Source of the DNA: Embleya hyalina
GTDB lineage: Bacteria; Actinomycetota; Actinomycetes; Streptomycetales; Streptomycetaceae
Length of the DNA: 64,000 nt
Direction of reading: 5' to 3'
Assembly: GCF_003967355.1 (NCBI RefSeq)
Contig: NZ_BIFH01000029.1
Span: 1-64,000, forward strand
Shown: piece by piece, positions 8,084 to 21,326 of the stretch
Layout of the letters: every line of letters starts with the position of its first letter
Numbering within the stretch: position 1 is the stretch's first letter
Translations under genes and position numbers: made by a program
Notes under the pieces: model-generated
Told to the model about the DNA's origin: nothing
Seen by the model: only the letters and a program-made list of their open reading frames with translations
Database searches by the model: none

Positions 8084-9013
8084 CTACCCCACCCGAACCG
8101 TGCGCCCCTCGCGCCGGGACACCACACACGCCTCGGCCACGGCCTGCGCCGCGAGCGCGTCGGCGCCCGGACAGGGGCTGGCGGCGCGACCGGCGGCCAT
8201 CGCCACGAACGCGGCCAGTTCCGCGCGGTAGGCGTCGCCGAAGCGGGCCAGGAAGTCGCCCTCGGTGACGCCGCCGCACGCGTGGGTCCCGGCGGTGCCG
8301 GCCACCTCCAGCCGCACGTCGTAGCCCGGCTCGTGCCGCCGACCCGCGTGCGCGGTACCGAGCGTGCCGTCGGCGAGCCGGAACAGCACCGCCGACACGT
8401 CGACGTCGTCGTGCTCCCGAAACACCGCCGCGCCGCGGTTCGCCCCGATCGCGGTCACCTCGACGATCGGCACACCCGTCACCCACGGCACGATGTCGAA
8501 GTCGTGGATGTGCGTGTCCCGATAGATACCGCCCGAGGTCGGCACGAACGCGGCCGGCGGCGGCCGGCGATCCACGCTCACCGCGTGCACCCGGGTCACC
8601 GTGCCGAGTCCGCCGGCCTCGACCGCCGCCCGCGCCGCGACGTACATCGGGTCGAATCGGCGCTGGAAGCCCACCTGCAGCCCGGCGCCGCGCGCCTCCA
8701 CGTACGCCACCGCCTCGCGCGCGACGATCGGGTCGAGCGCGATCGGCTTCTCGCACAGGATCGGCAACCTCGCGTCCGCCGCCGCCCGCAGCAACTCGAC
8801 GTGCGCCGAGGTCGGCGCGGCGATCACCACGGCGTCCACCGCCGCGAACACCTCGTCGAGCCCGACCGCCGCGACCCCGGCCGCCCGGGCGAACTCCTCG
8901 GCCCGTCCCCGATCCACATCCGCGACCACGACCCGCTCGACCGCCGCGATCCCACCCAACGCCCGGGCGTGAAACCCCCCGATCCGCCCGACCCCGACCA
9001 CTCCGACCCGCAT
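8084..9013 (-). CDS. Gfo/Idh/MocA-family oxidoreductase
   Basis: A 309-residue NAD(P)-dependent dehydrogenase of the glucose-fructose/inositol dehydrogenase family. The Rossmann start is VGVVGVGRIGGFHARAL, followed by the conserved ILCEKPIAL (Lys of the EKP motif) and an HDFD segment within IYRDTHIHDFDIVPW, where the usual active-site His is expected. It resembles inositol 2-dehydrogenases most, but substrate cannot be fixed. ATG at 9013 is chosen because GGAAAGGGA lies 4-5 nt before it; an in-frame start at 9034 has none. No sugar transporter or other pathway gene is adjacent. Confidence 0.85.
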   Translation of the reverse strand: MRVGVVGVGRIGGFHARALGGIAAVERVVVADVDRGRAEEFARAAGVAAVGLDEVFAAVDAVVIAAPTSAHVELLRAAADARLPILCEKPIALDPIVAREAVAYVEARGAGLQVGFQRRFDPMYVAARAAVEAGGLGTVTRVHAVSVDRRPPPAAFVPTSGGIYRDTHIHDFDIVPWVTGVPIVEVTAIGANRGAAVFREHDDVDVSAVLFRLADGTLGTAHAGRRHEPGYDVRLEVAGTAGTHACGGVTEGDFLARFGDAYRAELAAFVAMAAGRAASPCPGADALAAQAVAEACVVSRREGRTVRVG

Positions 9014-15187: not shown

Positions 15188-15200
15188 GCAACCCGATTGC
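15188..15200. promoter_or_regulatory. TetR operator candidate, 13 bp (site 1)
   Basis: GCAACCCGATTGC has arms GCAA/TTGC around a 5-bp centre, 15 bp upstream of the TetR start. It shares its arms and length with the better palindrome at 15236-15248. Confidence 0.45.
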
Positions 15201-15235
15201 ATGAGCGATCCCCTGTCCGCCATACTCATTCTAAC

Positions 15236-15248
15236 GCAACATTGTTGC
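15236..15248. promoter_or_regulatory. TetR operator candidate, 13 bp (site 2)
   Basis: GCAACATTGTTGC is a perfect palindrome (GCAACA-T-TGTTGC) in an unusually AT-rich patch (CATTCTAACGCAACATTG) midway between the divergent TetR and lyase genes. The site overlaps the probable promoter of one or both genes. Confidence 0.7.
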
Positions 15249-15316
15249 ATTTACTCACCCACAAACACTCGCCCACCCACACCCGCCCGCGTCGCCCCGA
15301 ACGAGAGAAGGCCCGG

Positions 15317-16210
15317 ATGACCACCCCCACCGCGACCACCGGATTCCCGGTCGCCGACCGCGAGTCCGGCCCGTACTCGATCGCCGTCGGCCCGGACGGC
15401 GCACTGTGGTTCACCCTGGTGCACGCCGGTCGCGTCGGCCGACTGGACCCCGCCTCCGGGCAGACCACGATCCACGATCTCGGCGACCCGTCCTGCGGCC
15501 CGACCGTGCTGGTCGCGGGCCCCGACGACGCGCTGTGGTTCACCGAGTACAGGGCCCACCGCATCGGCCGGATCGACCCGACCGGCACGGTGACCCACTT
15601 CGACCTGCCCACCGCCGATTCCGGGCCGTACGGGATCACCCGCGGCCCCGACGGCGCTCTCTGGTTCACCGAGACCGCCGCGAACCGCATCGGCCGGATC
15701 GATCCGGTCGGCGCGGTCACCACGTTCGACCTGCCGGTCCCGGCCGCGTTCCCGTCGGCGATCACCACCGGCGCCGACGGCGCGCTGTGGTTCACCCTCA
15801 ACGCGGCGAACGCGCTCGGTCGGATCACCACGACCGGCGCGGTGACCGTGTACCCGCTGCCCACTCCGGGCGCGGCCCCGGTCGGGATCACGGCCGGCCC
15901 CGACGGCTCCGTGTGGTTCGCCGAGATCGGCGCGGGCGCGATCGGTCGCCGCGCGGCGTCCGGCGAGTTCACCGAATTCCCGCTGCCGGACCGGGAGTCT
16001 CGCCCGCACGCGGTGGCGCTGGACGCGACCGGCCACTGCTGGTTCACCGAATGGGCCACGAACCGGGTCGGCCGACTCGCCCGGGAGGGCACTCTGACGG
16101 AGTACGACTTGCCCGGAGTCGCCGCCGAACCGCACGGCCTCACCCAGGGCCCCGACGGCGCGATCTGGGTCGCCCAGGAAATCGGCGCACTGGCCCGCGT
16201 CGAACCCTGA
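15317..16210 (+). CDS. vgb: Virginiamycin B (streptogramin B) lyase
   Basis: A 297-residue seven-bladed beta-propeller that linearises type B streptogramins by a Mg-dependent elimination. The repeated blade motif GPDGALWFTE...IGRIDP occurs throughout. Residues known to matter in the staphylococcal enzyme have counterparts: Tyr20 (GPYSI), a His in RPHAVALD, and Glu and His in AEPHGLTQG, followed 15 residues later by a Glu in VAQEIG. Length is that of the family (about 299). ATG at 15317 is preceded by GAGAAGG at good spacing. The divergent TetR gene and palindromes suggest inducible resistance, though lyase homologues in soil actinomycetes may have other substrates. Confidence 0.9.
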   Translation: MTTPTATTGFPVADRESGPYSIAVGPDGALWFTLVHAGRVGRLDPASGQTTIHDLGDPSCGPTVLVAGPDDALWFTEYRAHRIGRIDPTGTVTHFDLPTADSGPYGITRGPDGALWFTETAANRIGRIDPVGAVTTFDLPVPAAFPSAITTGADGALWFTLNAANALGRITTTGAVTVYPLPTPGAAPVGITAGPDGSVWFAEIGAGAIGRRAASGEFTEFPLPDRESRPHAVALDATGHCWFTEWATNRVGRLAREGTLTEYDLPGVAAEPHGLTQGPDGAIWVAQEIGALARVEP

Positions 16211-16459
16211 GTCGTCCGAATAACCGCTGGTGAACGCCGATTCGCCGGCCCGAATCGCCGACCGACCCCGGATTCGACCCATCGGCGAACACTCCCCCGC
16301 GCGCCCCCCGAACGCGCCCGCGCGCACCACACGCACGCACAAGGAACGCCGGTCGACACCAATTGCGAAATGGTGCAAAGCTCGACAAAAAGTGCCTATG
16401 GTCGTGCCACGGGGGCGTCGTCGAGCCCGGCGATTGAAGTCACGACGAGGGAGCACCCG
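16211..16459. other. Leader/promoter region of the small-peptide operon
   Basis: A 249-bp gap. Its right half (16360-16400) is strikingly AT-rich for this genome, including AATTGCGAAATGG and CGACAAAAAG, and contains a TATGGT hexamer at 16397-16402 that could be a -10 element, 60 bp before the peptide gene. A TTGC-N8-GCAA inverted pair lies at 16363-16378. No clear -35 at standard spacing was found. Confidence 0.35.
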
Positions 16460-16636
16460 ATGCTTACTCAACACGTTCGTCAGTCCACGCCGGTTCACGC
16501 CGGTACCGTCGCGACGCTCATGATCGAGGAGGAGACGACCATCAGCGATGCACCGCTTTACGTGCCGGAAGACTTCGGCGCGGGTGTGCTGCTCGCCGGT
16601 CTGCTCCTGTCGCCGAAGCCCCCGAAGGAACGGTGA
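16460..16636 (+). CDS. Small peptide (58 aa), candidate precursor peptide
   Basis: A 58-residue peptide beginning MLTQHVRQSTPVHAGTVATL. The first half is hydrophilic, with an acidic run EEE at residues 23-25; the second half has DFG (38-40), then a hydrophobic AGVLLAGLLL (41-50) and a basic Pro/Lys tail ending PPKER. ATG is supported by GAGGGA 7 nt upstream. It heads an operon of two unknown proteins and a serine hydrolase. The layout resembles ribosomal-peptide gene clusters (short leader-like start, distinct C-terminal core), but no modifying enzyme of a known class is adjacent and the peptide could instead be a small membrane-active or regulatory protein. Start is firm; function unknown. 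Confidence 0.6.
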   Translation: MLTQHVRQSTPVHAGTVATLMIEEETTISDAPLYVPEDFGAGVLLAGLLLSPKPPKER

Positions 16637-16690
16637 TTCGGACCAATCGTCCGTGACGGCACCGATTTCGATGGAAAGTTGATCACCACC

Positions 16691-17428
16691 ATGCCCTTCG
16701 CCGGCACCTCGCCACACGAGGACTACACGGCGGCGGTCGAGCGAGTGGCAGGCCAGGCCCTCGGCGTCCTCATGGACGCCGGGGGCGCGGTCGTCCCCGC
16801 CGGATTCGCCGTCGCCGACCTGCACGCGGCGCAAACCCGCGACCCCGACGCCGACTTGCCCGGCCTGCGGGTCCTGGGTTCGGACGCACTCGCCCCCCAC
16901 GTCCTGCGCGGCACCCCCGTACCGAGCGATCGGGCCGAGGCCGCCGCCAGGGCGTTCGCCGTTTTCCCGCCCGACGCGGTGGGCGCCTCGCCCGACACCG
17001 CGTGGATCGTCACCTGGCGCGACTGGGCGACGGCGCGCACGCTGACCCGCTGCGGCCTGGCCCTGGACGTACCGGCCCCCGGCGACGGTGCCCAGGTCGC
17101 CGACGCGACGTCCTGGCAGACCTGGTCGGTGCGGATGGCCCAGCTCTCCTCCCTGGCCCTGCCCGGCCTGGACGGTCCGATCCACGCCGCCGCGCGCGAG
17201 GGCGCCGAAGCCCTGTCCCGGGGGCTGGTCCGGTCGATGTTGCGCCGCGACTACCGCACCGCCGCCCGGATCGCCCGCTGGATCGCGTGGGTGGCGGCCG
17301 ACGGCGTCGCCGTGCCGCTGGACCTCGCGCCACTGTTGCGCCACGTCCGGGTGTTCGGCGGCGGCAGCACCCGTACCGTGCTCGACACCCGCATCGCCCA
17401 ACACGTGACCGGGCTGGAGGGCTCATGA
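16691..17428 (+). CDS. Unknown protein, second gene of peptide operon
   Basis: A 245-residue soluble protein I do not recognise. It is Ala-rich and mostly helical by composition, with a Trp-rich middle (TAWIVTWRDWATARTLTRCG; ATSWQTWSVRMAQLSSLALP) and a conserved-looking RRDYRTAARIARWIAWVAAD near the end. No signal peptide or membrane segment. ATG at 16691 has only GGAAAG 12 nt upstream; an in-frame TTG at 16679 is an alternative. The stop overlaps the next gene's ATG (ATGA), so both are translationally coupled. It may be an accessory subunit to the next protein. Confidence 0.75.
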   Translation: MPFAGTSPHEDYTAAVERVAGQALGVLMDAGGAVVPAGFAVADLHAAQTRDPDADLPGLRVLGSDALAPHVLRGTPVPSDRAEAAARAFAVFPPDAVGASPDTAWIVTWRDWATARTLTRCGLALDVPAPGDGAQVADATSWQTWSVRMAQLSSLALPGLDGPIHAAAREGAEALSRGLVRSMLRRDYRTAARIARWIAWVAADGVAVPLDLAPLLRHVRVFGGGSTRTVLDTRIAQHVTGLEGS

Positions 17429-18354
17429 ACGCCGATGTGCTCAAGACTGCCCACACCATCGGCTCGCGGGCGCTGCGCTGGCTGCACGACAACGCCGATT
17501 TCGGCACCCTGCCCACGCACACCGTCGTCGACTTCAACGACCGCGACGGCGCGTACAAACCCCTCGGCGAGGCCGCGTTGGCCACCTCGCTCATGTTGCG
17601 CGAGCGGGTCGCCGGGCCGGGCGACCTGGCCATCGCGCGCGACCTGATCGACTTCGCCTGGGGGCAGTTCCAGTCCGGGAACTTCCTCTACGAGCGCCAG
17701 GTCCGGCATCCGCTGATCACCGACCCGCTGGAGACCTACGCGCACTTCACCCGGGCGGGCCTGCGGCACGAACAGATGGACCGATTGCAGGAGCACCTGG
17801 CCGAACTGCGCTCGGTGCACGGGATCGAACTGATGCCCAACCGGCGGCTCGCGGTGGCCAACGCGAGCCGGGTCGCCGGCGTGAGCCGCCGCTTCGACTG
17901 GGCCGCGCTCGCCGCCGACACCTGGTTGGGCATGACTCCCGAGCCGTGGGTGATCGACTGGATGACCGCGTACTGCATGACCCACACGGTGTTCCACGTC
18001 ACCGACTGGGGCGCGCATCCCGAACTGTTGCCCGCCGACATCCGGGACTATCTGCGGATCTGGCTGCCGGTCTGGGTGGACATCTGGGCCGAGGTCGCGC
18101 AATTCGACCTGGTGGGCGAATTGTTGGCGGTCGACGCGTGCCTGCCGGAGCCGGTGTGCGACGCGCAGGGCTGGCAGCGGCTCGCGGCGGCGCAGCGCGA
18201 GGACGGACTGCTGCCGCGCGACGCGGACCCGATCGACGAGGACCCGAAGCAGGCGTTCAAGGACCACGAGCACACCGCCGTGGTCGCGATCGTGGCCGGC
18301 ACCATCACGCTGGCGCGCTCCCTGGGTACCACAACGGTCTCCGTGCCCGCGTGA
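17425..18354 (+). CDS. DUF6895-like unknown protein
   Basis: A 309-residue soluble protein, probably all-helical with helical-repeat character: GSRALRWLHDNADFG, PLGEAALATSLMLRERV, IARDLIDFAWGQFQSGNFLYE, then a His/Asp-containing segment YCMTHTVFHVTDWGAHPELL and a late LLAVDACLPEPVCDAQGW and FKDHEHTAVVA. The His-rich motif could bind metal or form an active site, and the overall pattern recalls alpha/alpha-barrel enzymes. I believe it belongs to the family labelled DUF6895 but cannot verify. It overlaps its neighbours by 4 bp on both sides, so it is an obligate part of the operon. Confidence 0.7.
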   Translation: MNADVLKTAHTIGSRALRWLHDNADFGTLPTHTVVDFNDRDGAYKPLGEAALATSLMLRERVAGPGDLAIARDLIDFAWGQFQSGNFLYERQVRHPLITDPLETYAHFTRAGLRHEQMDRLQEHLAELRSVHGIELMPNRRLAVANASRVAGVSRRFDWAALAADTWLGMTPEPWVIDWMTAYCMTHTVFHVTDWGAHPELLPADIRDYLRIWLPVWVDIWAEVAQFDLVGELLAVDACLPEPVCDAQGWQRLAAAQREDGLLPRDADPIDEDPKQAFKDHEHTAVVAIVAGTITLARSLGTTTVSVPA

Positions 18355-19361
18355 GCGAGTCGTCCGCACGGTTGTTGGCGCCGCTGTTGCGGACCGTGCC
18401 CTCGGCCGGCGCGCTGGTCGTGGGCACGGTCCGGGCGGGCGAGTCGTCGGTGGTGTGCCGAGGGCCCGCGGTGGACGCCGACGCCCGGTTCGAACTGGGC
18501 TCGGTGACCAAGACGTTCACGGCGCTGCTGCTGGCCGACGCGGTGGCGCGCGGTGAGGCCCGCCTCGACGATCCGCTGATCACCTACCTGCCGCCCGGCG
18601 CCCGGCCGCGCTGGTCCTCGGACGTGACCCTGCTGCATCTGGCCACGCACACCTCCGGGTTGCCCCGACTGCCGGCCGGCACGCTGCGCACGGCGTTGCC
18701 CGCCTGGTACTCGAACCCGTACGCGGGCTACACCGAACAGCGCCTGTTCGCCCTGCTCGGCCGGACCCGGCCGCACGCGCGGCCGGGCACCCGGGTGCTG
18801 TACTCCAACCTGGGTGTGGCGCTGCTCGGACACGCGCTCGCGCGCGCCGCCGGCATGCCCTATCCGGACCTGGTGGTCGCCCGGCTCGGGGTGCCGCTGG
18901 GGCTGACGATGACCACGTGCGACCCGAACGGGCCGCAGGTGACGGGGTATCTGCGCGGTCGGCCCCGGCCGCCGTGGGACATGCCGGGGCTGCCCGCCGC
19001 GGGGGCGCTGCGCAGCAGCGGGACGGACGTGACCCGGTACCTGGCCGCGCACCTGGATCCGTCCGGTGTGCGACCCGCCTCGCTCGCCCGCGCGTTGGTG
19101 GACGTCCGGCGGCCTCGGCTGATCTGTCCCGGCGGCGGTGATCGGCTGTGCCTGGTGTGGAACCTGCGGGTGCGTCGGGGGCACGATCTGATCTTCCACG
19201 GCGGCGCGACGCGCGGGTTCACCACGTTCGTGGGCTTCAGCCCGCAGACCGGGGTCGGCCTCGCCGCGCTGGTGAACCGGGCGACGGGGGATCGGGGGCC
19301 CTTCATCCAGGTCGCGTACGACACCCTGCGAGCGCTCGCGGACGACGCGGACGGCGCTTAG
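18351..19361 (+). CDS. Serine hydrolase, beta-lactamase/PBP (class C) fold
   Basis: A 336-residue protein of the AmpC/penicillin-binding serine hydrolase family. The three active-site motifs are intact: SxxK at Ser51-Lys54 (SVTK), YxN at Tyr151-Asn153 (YSN), and HxG at His283-Gly285 (FHGGATRGF) in place of KTG. There is no signal peptide, which suggests a cytoplasmic role as a peptidase, esterase or acyl-transfer enzyme rather than a beta-lactamase. GTG start overlaps the previous stop (GTGA). Being last in the peptide operon, it could cleave or release the peptide product (inference). A strong terminator follows 7 bp after the stop. Confidence 0.85.
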   Translation: MSESSARLLAPLLRTVPSAGALVVGTVRAGESSVVCRGPAVDADARFELGSVTKTFTALLLADAVARGEARLDDPLITYLPPGARPRWSSDVTLLHLATHTSGLPRLPAGTLRTALPAWYSNPYAGYTEQRLFALLGRTRPHARPGTRVLYSNLGVALLGHALARAAGMPYPDLVVARLGVPLGLTMTTCDPNGPQVTGYLRGRPRPPWDMPGLPAAGALRSSGTDVTRYLAAHLDPSGVRPASLARALVDVRRPRLICPGGGDRLCLVWNLRVRRGHDLIFHGGATRGFTTFVGFSPQTGVGLAALVNRATGDRGPFIQVAYDTLRALADDADGA

Positions 19362-19367
19362 GGCCCA

Positions 19368-19408
19368 CACGGGGTGCCGCGGCCGGATTCGGGCCGCGGC
19401 ACCCCGTG
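19368..19408. terminator. Bidirectional terminator, 17-bp perfect stem
   Basis: Arms at 19368-19384 and 19392-19408 are fully complementary (17 bp) with a 7-nt GGATTCG loop. It lies between the converging serine hydrolase and dihydroxyacetone kinase genes and can serve both strands. No T-run, as usual in this genome. Confidence 0.85.
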
Positions 19409-19421
19409 CGGCGGTGGTGTC

Positions 19422-21107
19422 CTACTCGTCCTCCGCGTCCAGGGCGTCGGCGACCGCGCGGAGCCAGATCACCACCGCCTCCGCGCCCGGGTCGACCGTG
19501 CCGATCGCCCGGTCGCCGAGGTAGCTGCTGCGGCCTCGGCGGGCGCTGTGGGTCGCCGTCTCCTCGGTGCCGGCGGCGGCCGCGTCGATCGCCTCGGCCA
19601 GGCTCGCGCCGCCGACCAGGGCCTCACCGGCGGGTACCAGGGCGTCCAGCATGGTGCGGTCGCCGACCCGGGCGCCGCCGAGTTCGCCGATCGCCCGAGC
19701 GCCGGCGGCCATGGCCTCGCGCCACCCGCGCGGTGACGGGTCCGCCTCCACCGTGCCCGCCGCGCGCAGCAGGAGCACCGAGTACAGCGGCCCGGAGGTA
19801 CCGCCGAGCGCGCGCCGTACGGTGTCGGCGAGCCCGCGCAGCACGGCGGCCGGGTCACCGCCGCCGTAGCCGGGCAACTCGCGCCGGATGGCCTCGGCGC
19901 CGCGCGCCAGGCTGATGCCCAGGTCGCCGTCGCCGACGATCCGGTCCAGTTCGGTCAGGTGCGGCTCGGCCTCGGTCAGCGCCGCGCACGCCGCCTCGAC
20001 GGCCCGGGTGAGCGGCGTCGGCCCGGTCAGCGCGGTGCCGGCGTCGGCGGTGCCGGGAGCGGGGACGGCCGGCAGCACGGTGACCCGGCCCACCCGGCCC
20101 ACCACCGGCGTCGGCCACGCGGGCGCGGAGGTCGCCGCGTCGAGGCGGGCGAGCCGGGCGTCGTCGACCCGGACTACGGACAGCGAGACGCCGGCCATCT
20201 CCAGGGCGGTCAGGAACGAGCCGCGCCAGGCCCGTTCCAGGACCAGACCCCGGCCGGCCAGGTCGCGCACGGCGCCGCGCAGCACGATGTCCAGTTCCAT
20301 CGTCGGGGTGCCGCCGAGGTTGTTGACCAGCAGCGCGACCCGGTCGCCGACGCCGAGGCCCTTCTCCGTCACGATCCGGTCCAGGAGTTCGGCCACGAAC
20401 GTGTCGGCGGGCGCGATCTTGTCCCGGCGCACCCCCGCCTCGCCGTGGATGCCCAGGCCCAACTCGACCTCGTCCTCGCCGAGTTCGAAGCCGGGCTGCC
20501 CGGCGGCCGGCACCGTGCACGGGCTGAGCGCGACGCCCATCGTGCCGATCGCGCGGGCCGCCGCCTCGGCCTCCGCCCGGACCTCGGCCAGCGTCGCGCC
20601 CGCCTCCGCCGCCGCTCCCGCGACCTTGTGCACGAACACGGTGCCGGCGATCCCGCGCCGACCGGCGGTGCCCTCCCCCGCGGCCAGCGCCACGTCGTCG
20701 GCGACCACCACCACCTCGACCGCGATCCCCTCGGCCCGGGCCAGCTCGGCGGCGAGGCCGAAGTTGAGCCGGTCGCCGGTGTACGACTTGACCACGAGCA
20801 GCACCCCGGCCGGGCCGGCGACGGTGCGGATCGCGGCCAGGATCGTGTCGGTGGCCGGCGAGGTGAACACGTCCCCCGACACGGCGGCGGTCAACATCCC
20901 GGGCCCGACGTATCCCGCGTGCGCGGGCTCGTGGCCGGCGCCGCCGCCGGAGATCACCGCGACCCGACCGCTCTGCGCGTACGCCCGCGCGTCCGCGCGC
21001 AACGCGACGTTCGCGCCGTCGAGCAGGGCGATGCCGGGGTTGGCCAGTGCCAGTCCCTCCAACATCTCGGGGACGACGTCGCGGGCGGAATTGATCAGCT
21101 TCTTCAT
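19422..21107 (-). CDS. Dihydroxyacetone kinase, DhaK-DhaL fusion
   Basis: A 561-residue cytoplasmic kinase. The N-terminal DhaK half (residues 1 to about 330) has GGGAGHEPAHAGYVGPGML and the substrate-binding His in LGLGIHGEAGVRR; the C-terminal DhaL half (about 360-560) has the ADP/Mg motif GDGDLGISLARG, then GGTSGPLYSVLLL and ATHSARRGRSSYLGDRAIG. Fusion of the two halves is the ATP-dependent form, unlike PTS-type DhaKLM. It phosphorylates dihydroxyacetone (possibly other triose or tetrose sugars). ATG at 21107 opens MKKLINSARDVVPEMLEGL, a typical start. It stands alone; no glycerol genes adjoin. Confidence 0.95.
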   Translation of the reverse strand: MKKLINSARDVVPEMLEGLALANPGIALLDGANVALRADARAYAQSGRVAVISGGGAGHEPAHAGYVGPGMLTAAVSGDVFTSPATDTILAAIRTVAGPAGVLLVVKSYTGDRLNFGLAAELARAEGIAVEVVVVADDVALAAGEGTAGRRGIAGTVFVHKVAGAAAEAGATLAEVRAEAEAAARAIGTMGVALSPCTVPAAGQPGFELGEDEVELGLGIHGEAGVRRDKIAPADTFVAELLDRIVTEKGLGVGDRVALLVNNLGGTPTMELDIVLRGAVRDLAGRGLVLERAWRGSFLTALEMAGVSLSVVRVDDARLARLDAATSAPAWPTPVVGRVGRVTVLPAVPAPGTADAGTALTGPTPLTRAVEAACAALTEAEPHLTELDRIVGDGDLGISLARGAEAIRRELPGYGGGDPAAVLRGLADTVRRALGGTSGPLYSVLLLRAAGTVEADPSPRGWREAMAAGARAIGELGGARVGDRTMLDALVPAGEALVGGASLAEAIDAAAAGTEETATHSARRGRSSYLGDRAIGTVDPGAEAVVIWLRAVADALDAEDE

Positions 21108-21326
21108 GGCTGCATCTCTACCTGGCCGAGCCTCGAACGAATCCACCGGGCCGGCCCGAATCATGGGCAACCGGACGGGCGGGACACGCGTGTCGCTCAT
21201 CGGGACCGATGGTCCCGGGGCGCGGTGGATCGCCGTCCGGCGGTCGTACCGCCCGGCGCGTGGCGGGAGTGGTTCCTCCTCAGGACTTCCGCCACGAGCC
21301 GGACTCCCCGGTCGGTGCGGCGGCAC

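Follow-up and report, generated by a model that had tools for sequence, protein, structure and literature searches.

The subject of this analysis is a cassette of four genes in a stretch of 64,000 nucleotides from Embleya hyalina (NCBI RefSeq assembly GCF_003967355.1, contig NZ_BIFH01000029.1, positions 1 to 64,000 of the forward strand), referred to below as the window. The genes are read from one strand and encode a 58-residue peptide (P1), an all-helical protein by prediction (P2), a member of the DUF6895 family (P3) and a serine hydrolase (P4); coordinates are collected in table 1. A first-pass annotation, made from the sequence without database searches, had described the locus as a possible new peptide pathway, with the peptide as substrate, the 309-residue protein as modifying enzyme and the hydrolase as protease or release enzyme. 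Its reading of the genes held for the well-placed start of the peptide, which is conserved, and for the 4-bp overlaps of the last three genes (ATGA at P2/P3 and GTGA at P3/P4). The peptide stop codon is separated from P2 by 54 bp.

Table 1. Genes and flanking elements of the cassette, with positions in the window.
Feature	Position	Strand	Description
P1, peptide gene	16460-16636	+	58 aa, ATG start, GAGGGAG upstream
P2	16691-17428	+	245 aa, predicted all-helical, no Pfam match
P3	17425-18354	+	309 aa, DUF6895 (PF21836), predicted alpha/alpha toroid, candidate peptide epimerase
P4	18351-19361	+	336 aa, GTG start, S12/class-C beta-lactamase-like serine hydrolase
Putative promoter block AAATGGTGCAAAGCTCGACAAAAAGTGCCTATGGTC	16368-16403	+	AT-rich, partly conserved in the genus (compared by eye in the window, L036, L037 and L038)
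GC-rich hairpin, probable terminator	19368-19408	none	17-bp stem, 7-nt loop, no T-run

Conservation and distribution of the cassette

Gene order was compared across 105 loci, comprising the window, five further loci, 20 loci taken one each from 20 of the 31 matching genomes, 59 fetched regions and 20 two-copy regions (an arbitrary 60th region was omitted). Selection of the loci rested on a cassette-type DUF6895 match, on which the co-occurrence counts are therefore conditional; two of the loci (L035 and L145) are apparently the same record, with identical P3. P2, P3 and P4 were collinear on one strand in 102 of the 105 loci, and a recognizable peptide lay upstream of P2 in 103 (102 by search and L163 by eye). 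The first-pass annotation had named absence of the peptide gene beside the other three in relatives as the observation that would speak against a pathway; the gene is instead a nearly constant part of the cassette. P4 of L132 lies 1.3 kb away, and the P2 match falls into two pieces in L110 and L155. At L125:2553-3517 (G504) the P4 match consists of two overlapping pieces, with the peptide, P2 and P3 in one piece each, and P4 of this locus is possibly frameshifted.

Named records with the same cassette belong to Streptomyces and Kitasatospora, and in two plasmid copies from Streptomycetaceae the cassette genes are annotated just as 'hypothetical protein' and 'serine hydrolase'. Counted in any context, within the cassette or elsewhere, PF21836 was present in 217 of 394 genomes of Streptomycetaceae (215 above the cut-off), was rare in genomes sampled across the phylum (7 of 396, 6 above the cut-off) and was found in none of 14 control genomes. 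Outside Streptomycetaceae, members of the family were seen on Cupriavidus and Pseudalkalibacillus plasmids; a pattern-based search of the viral collection reached no relative. Clustering of neighbouring open reading frames (ORFs) in 25 loci gave no other widely shared gene, the largest cluster not overlapping the cassette spanning eight loci. The ORF filter used was imperfect, recovering P3 in 21 loci, P2 in 20 and P4 in 13, and a shared neighbour could therefore have been missed.

The 58-residue peptide

Homologues of the peptide were found by tblastn adjoining P2 in relatives; P1 itself has no Pfam match and no NCBIfam match. The ratio of non-synonymous to synonymous substitution rates (dN/dS) was 0.12-0.24 in six of six within-genus pairs (window, L036, L037 and L038), and among 64 additional class A pairs there were 63 in which the proportion of non-synonymous differences was below that of synonymous ones (pN<pS); these pairs are 75-97% identical in DNA across the final 150 bases and are not independent of one another. 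Conservation in relatives together with these values indicates that purifying selection acts on the peptide and that it is no chance ORF.

The peptides were sorted into class A (n = 69), class B (n = 26), class C (n = 4) and one outlier (L049); L048 and L163 were set aside from these counts, as were two near-copies (L125 and L145), L047 contributes no row, and L166 was added to class C by eye. The window peptide belongs to class A and consists of a variable N-terminus, the motif EEETTISDAPLYVPED, a Leu-rich stretch and the tail LLLSPKPPKER. Throughout class A the Glu, Ser and Pro of E-A-x-V-S-D-A-P are 100% conserved, and the motif is followed by P-E, the Leu-rich stretch and (S/A)-P-K-x-P-K-E, both prolines of which are 99-100% conserved. 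Class B peptides carry E-P-D-G-V-(F/Y)-R-D-(S/T)-R-E-C and then L-L-S-P-P-T-P-R-P-K-K, and class C peptides have a longer C-terminal tail (for example EPVEDAYVGMVQNLACAAAF). In L162, L164, L166 and L167 the class C peptides upstream of P2 share a conserved C-terminal extension after the Leu-rich stretch (for example PVEDAYVGMVQNLACAAAF), which might serve as a follower or as an alternative core.

A conserved leader with a variable core, the usual though not obligatory pattern in ribosomally synthesized and post-translationally modified peptides (RiPPs), had been suggested as a check on the precursor. The pattern was found reversed, in that the N-terminal part varies and the motif and the Leu-rich, Ser-Pro C-terminus are nearly fixed. 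This combination suggests a conserved product behind the nearly invariant C-terminal region.

Peptide class and DUF6895 copy number coincide: all 26 two-copy loci have a class B peptide and no single-copy locus has one. A quick tree was built from 134 DUF6895 proteins (129 of 131 cassette pieces, two having been dropped, and five distant members); ten pieces contained stops from merged match ends, which were set to X or cut. In it the 77 single copies grouped together (support 99), as did the 26 second copies (support 100), and the 26 first copies required just one change, though with support of 71. As the copies group separately in the tree, the duplication is probably old. Both copies retain the key residues described below.

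The DUF6895 protein P3

DUF6895 was the sole Pfam family matched by P3 (PF21836, E 7.4e-82, 275.4 bits against a cut-off of 23.8), the match running over residues 14-292 and profile positions 2-288 of 289. P3 was one of the two proteins left unrecognized in the first-pass annotation, a label that stands for P2 and no longer applies to P3. Structure prediction, which had been proposed as a check on this protein, gave a confident AlphaFold2 model with a predicted local distance difference test (pLDDT) score of 91.7 that is all-helical and free of strands. Its neighbours by VIA-align were alpha/alpha toroids, namely squalene-hopene cyclase (Z 17.4, root-mean-square deviation (rmsd) 3.4, 257 aligned), GH105 (Z 16.8, rmsd 3.6, 248 aligned) and cellobiose 2-epimerase (Z 16.5, rmsd 3.8, 269 aligned), and P3 is accordingly predicted to be an alpha/alpha toroid. 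The structural matches are tied across a cyclase, a hydrolase and an epimerase, so the fold is uninformative on function.

Four residues, H187, D228, E232 and H283, are nearly invariant: each is found in 129 of the 130 cassette copies and in the full set of five distant DUF6895 proteins aligned, and E49 in 128 of 130 and all five. E103 and Y105 were present in all 130 cassette copies and are not fixed in the distant proteins. By its title, the paper of Shi et al. (ACS Catal. 2026, 16:1757; cited in PMC13352647) assigns a DUF6895 protein as a lasso-peptide epimerase. From family membership, P3 is a plausible peptide-modifying enzyme, as had been proposed, and a candidate peptide epimerase; the earlier statement that no known RiPP enzyme class occurs here no longer holds, on the strength of that title. 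With a RiPP enzyme family present, the chemistry of the cassette need not be new.

The proteins P2 and P4

P2 gave no Pfam match and one insignificant NCBIfam match (E 0.11). Its model is confident (pLDDT 89.7) and all-helical, with a best VIA match to C3d (Z 9.1, rmsd 4.7, 215 aligned) and a best Foldseek match at E 0.33; for an all-helical protein these matches are too weak, and they would bear only on the folds listed. A reading of P2 as a degenerate DUF6895 was considered and was unsupported (hhalign E 0.54). D65, W142, R196 and W197 are invariant among 102 P2 homologues, and P2 is a probable helper or peptide-binding partner.

Enzymes of the S12 type are defined by the motifs SxxK, YxN and HxG or KTG. 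P4 matched PF00144 (E 5.2e-51), the match ending at residue 314, and carries S51xxK54, Y151xN153 and H283xG285, so that the motifs are intact as first described. In 100 of 100 aligned homologues S51, K54, H100, Y124, Y151, W270, H283 and G285 were invariant, and N153 was present in 96; L125 was omitted from the alignment, and stops from merged match ends in nine P4 pieces and one P2 piece were set to X or cut. On the Kyte-Doolittle scale the highest mean over 19 residues of P4 was 1.41, too low to suggest a signal peptide or a membrane helix, again in agreement with the first description. The 336-residue protein ends with the penicillin-binding protein (PBP) domain, with no second domain above the cut-off and no C-terminal lipocalin-like domain.

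Comparison with known systems

Action next to D-residues is a feature of S12 superfamily members such as DD-peptidases, D-amidases, ClbP and the PBP-type cyclases. AmpH, ClbP and D-amino acid amidase share with P4 the PF00144 match, the AmpH model (D-alanyl-D-alanine carboxypeptidase/endopeptidase) matching below its cut-off; P4 differs from them in having no apparent signal peptide and in lying in a peptide operon. According to PMC11735501, the PBP-type thioesterases SurE, Ulm16 and PenA couple a D-residue at the C-terminus with an L-residue at the N-terminus and carry a Ser/Lys/Asn/His catalytic set with a C-terminal lipocalin-like domain. P4 has the same catalytic set and likewise stands alone. 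It differs in that its substrate would be ribosomal and in the missing lipocalin-like domain, for which reason it was not classed as a PBP-type thioesterase. By analogy, these enzymes indicate how a P4-like fold could act next to a D-residue.

The lasso-peptide epimerase named in the title of Shi et al. shares its Pfam family name with P3; the cassette differs in having no lasso leader-protease gene (PF13471) beside DUF6895 in the genomes checked. A reading of the cassette as a lasso-peptide cluster was rejected, as no PF13471 place adjoins a listed DUF6895 place in the sets of 20 and 31 genomes. The nearest lies about 38 kb away on the same contig in G545; the window's own genome (G000) has four PF13471 places, none of them on contig C29, the macrolactam synthetase gene having been outside the search. 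MslH, the epimerase of lasso peptide MS-271, is described in PMC10406935 as having a calcineurin-like fold with Ca(II) and His/Asp catalytic residues. Its acid/base epimerization of a ribosomal peptide would be analogous chemistry for P3, which differs in being all-helical in its strand-free model and in matching DUF6895 only, with no calcineurin-like metallophosphoesterase fold.

No description of the cassette was found among the literature matches listed, as judged by title and opening of the abstract. In the main text of the decRiPPter paper (PMC7794033) the words 'lactamase', 'hydrolase' and 'epimerase' are absent, so that an earlier decRiPPter listing is neither shown nor excluded by it.

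DUF6895 in other contexts

A second recurring, RiPP-like type of cluster contains two DUF6895 domains and a radical S-adenosylmethionine (SAM) protein. At L073:4915-10799, the one locus of this type taken through profile searches, the order is a candidate precursor ending WCVTNNSSEL, a glycosyltransferase-like/DUF6895 fusion, the radical SAM protein, DUF6895 and a major facilitator superfamily (MFS) transporter. The glycosyltransferase part gave matches below the cut-offs, and the radical SAM protein resembles RiPP maturases, its best NCBIfam match (TIGR04463) also falling below the cut-off. All 16 loci of this type (L072, L073 and L189-L202) carry the radical SAM motif TVLTSTxCNLGCGYCFQNT. 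An ORF stretch like the L073 precursor lay upstream on the same strand in 14 of the other 15 (E 1e-26 to 0.046), hence 15 of 16 with L073 included, and follows the pattern MPE..NPE..VVAH..C(I/V)xNNS; the sole locus without it is a 5.5-kb contig. The recurrence of DUF6895 in a radical SAM peptide cluster supports a peptide-modifying role independently of the lasso paper.

Searched by pattern, the five single-DUF6895 loci L204-L208 yielded no radical SAM gene of this kind, and neither did L203. Very divergent second DUF6895 genes lie at L069:1872-2714 (G000:C13), in the window's own genome, and at L070 (G002), with no obvious peptide cluster around either by eye. Some DUF6895 genes, as judged from L203-L208 and L069, are thus without an evident RiPP context.

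Three further loci were recorded. On a Pseudalkalibacillus plasmid (L106:8362-10281) the DUF6895 gene stands between an 86-residue ORF ending NINPNIRPK and a 215-residue ORF. In L074 a 65-residue ORF at 8162-8359 lies upstream of the DUF6895 gene and has, by eye, an 'LQxSGL.N' stretch in common with the 86-residue ORF of L106. On a Cupriavidus oxalaticus plasmid (L105:8069-9867) the DUF6895 gene is preceded by ORFs of 125 and 164 residues, the first with a CDFCLHC stretch, in what is a possible Gram-negative peptide cluster.

Flanking elements and neighbouring genes

The GC content at 16350-16410 is 52.5% against 72.5% for the whole window, with just 0.7% of the window's 61-bp stretches (sampled every 5 bases) being as low, which bears out the AT-rich promoter region first described. 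The 17-bp stem of the terminator proposed there is likewise present, and the T-run that would complete a classical terminator is missing; the 70-nucleotide hairpin stretch has a minimum free energy of -51.1 kcal/mol (z -4.37). A sigma-70 scan of the locus found no promoter and a terminator scan listed no classical T-run terminator, and both elements are for that reason named here as putative. The window further holds, by eye, a virginiamycin-B-lyase-type beta-propeller look-alike at 15197-16210 (+) and a DhaK/DhaL-like dihydroxyacetone kinase look-alike at 19422-21326 (-).

Discussion

A gene-encoded peptide conserved beside putative tailoring genes in 103 of 105 loci is what would be expected of a RiPP, and we hold with considerable confidence that the cassette is of RiPP type. 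For P3, epimerization is the most likely reaction by analogy with the one published lasso enzyme, the family assignment itself being given by the profile match; we regard it as probable. That P4 acts D-dependently is a more tentative proposal, to which we give somewhat less than even weight. Taken as a whole, the explanation that we favour, with moderate confidence, is a RiPP-type cassette in which DUF6895 epimerizes the Leu-rich C-terminal region of the peptide and the S12 enzyme releases or ring-closes the product. The 58-residue peptide would be the substrate, recognized through its N-terminal part and the E..SDAPxYxPE motif, and the LLxGLLLSPKPPKER end would, from its conservation, be the part acted on. 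P3 would use acid/base chemistry, involving some of H187, D228, E232 and H283, to epimerize at least one residue in the hydrophobic C-terminal part. P2 would be a helical protein partnering either P3 or the peptide, and P4 would then cut or ring-close the peptide at the new D-residue. In the two-copy relatives the peptide differs in its motif and has a Pro/Arg/Lys tail, which suggests that the second DUF6895 protein may serve a second modified site or form a paired enzyme.

Several observations weigh against this explanation. The substrate role of the peptide, its epimerization, the C-terminal site and the processing by P4 at a D-residue are steps that we infer, and the tie of P3 to the published lasso epimerase consists, by analogy, of the family name and a title. 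P3 has no Foldseek match below E 0.001 and no match among PDB sequences at E 10. The best solved sequence relatives of P4 are class C beta-lactamases, D-amino acid amidase (E 0.52) and ClbP (E 0.63) match its C-terminal half insignificantly, and a preference for D-residues is not to be read from its sequence. The putative core is, by alignment, conserved and not variable, unlike that of most antibiotic-type RiPPs. P4 is missing in 3 of the 105 loci (L042, L047 and L048); L047 has P3 alone, P2 being missing too, and was for that reason not scanned for a peptide, and L048 has neither P4 nor a recognizable peptide. No exporter or regulator was widely shared with the cassette in the 25-locus ORF clustering, profiles not having been used in that search.

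The same RiPP architecture may instead house another DUF6895 reaction on the peptide, for example terpene-cyclase-like or dehydratase-like acid/base chemistry or a cyclization, with P4 as an ordinary leader peptidase. The toroid fold shared with squalene-hopene cyclase, GH105 hydrolases and sugar epimerases would accommodate such a reaction, and P3 has no solved relative by sequence; however, no published function other than peptide epimerization, itself known by title, was found for the family, and the conserved His, Asp and Glu residues suit proton transfer, although they would suit other acid/base reactions as well. We consider this alternative unlikely.

Less probable again is a role of the peptide as a small structural or regulatory subunit, for instance one that tethers a P2-P3-P4 complex to the membrane or localizes it, the complex acting on another substrate such as a cell-wall peptide. 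A nearly invariant hydrophobic and cationic C-terminus, the lack of an exporter standing out around the cassette in the ORF clustering and the resemblance of P4 to AmpH, below the model cut-off, would all fit such a subunit, whereas the missing signal peptide of P4 and the recurrence of DUF6895 near unrelated short ORFs with a RiPP-maturase-like radical SAM protein argue against it. A toxin-antitoxin or anti-phage unit with the peptide as small toxin, to which a small hydrophobic peptide beside accessory genes and the patchy occurrence of the family (217 of 394 genomes) might point, is very improbable, as the four proteins matched none of the families in the PADLOC defence models at E 0.01 and a unit of that kind would not usually come with three enzyme-like partners.

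An extension of the favoured explanation, an epimerizing RiPP cassette with an S12 release enzyme, is a new RiPP class in which a toroid epimerase writes the D-residue into a ribosomal peptide and a stand-alone PBP-type transpeptidase makes use of this residue in expelling the Ser-Pro-Lys tail and closing a head-to-tail or lariat peptide. Given how little the processed region varies, the product would then be a conserved streptomycete signalling or developmental factor and not an antibiotic. We put this forward as a speculation with a low probability; if true, it would be a ribosomal use of a logic so far known from non-ribosomal cyclases.

The interpretation given in the first-pass annotation is thus partly supported, including the release role of the hydrolase, whose class could release a product. 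The cassette combines a member of an enzyme family for which a role has been reported with a member of a well-known superfamily of hydrolases. It is of high practical interest, being common and made up of four small genes that are simple to test. DUF6895 occurs in over half of the Streptomycetaceae genomes sampled (cassette and other contexts together). If the favoured explanation is true, the cassette would be a common peptide pathway of bacteria that have been mined intensively, comprising a peptide epimerase and a hydrolase by which the D-residue may be read, and a product that varies so little suggests that there is a biological role worth looking for.

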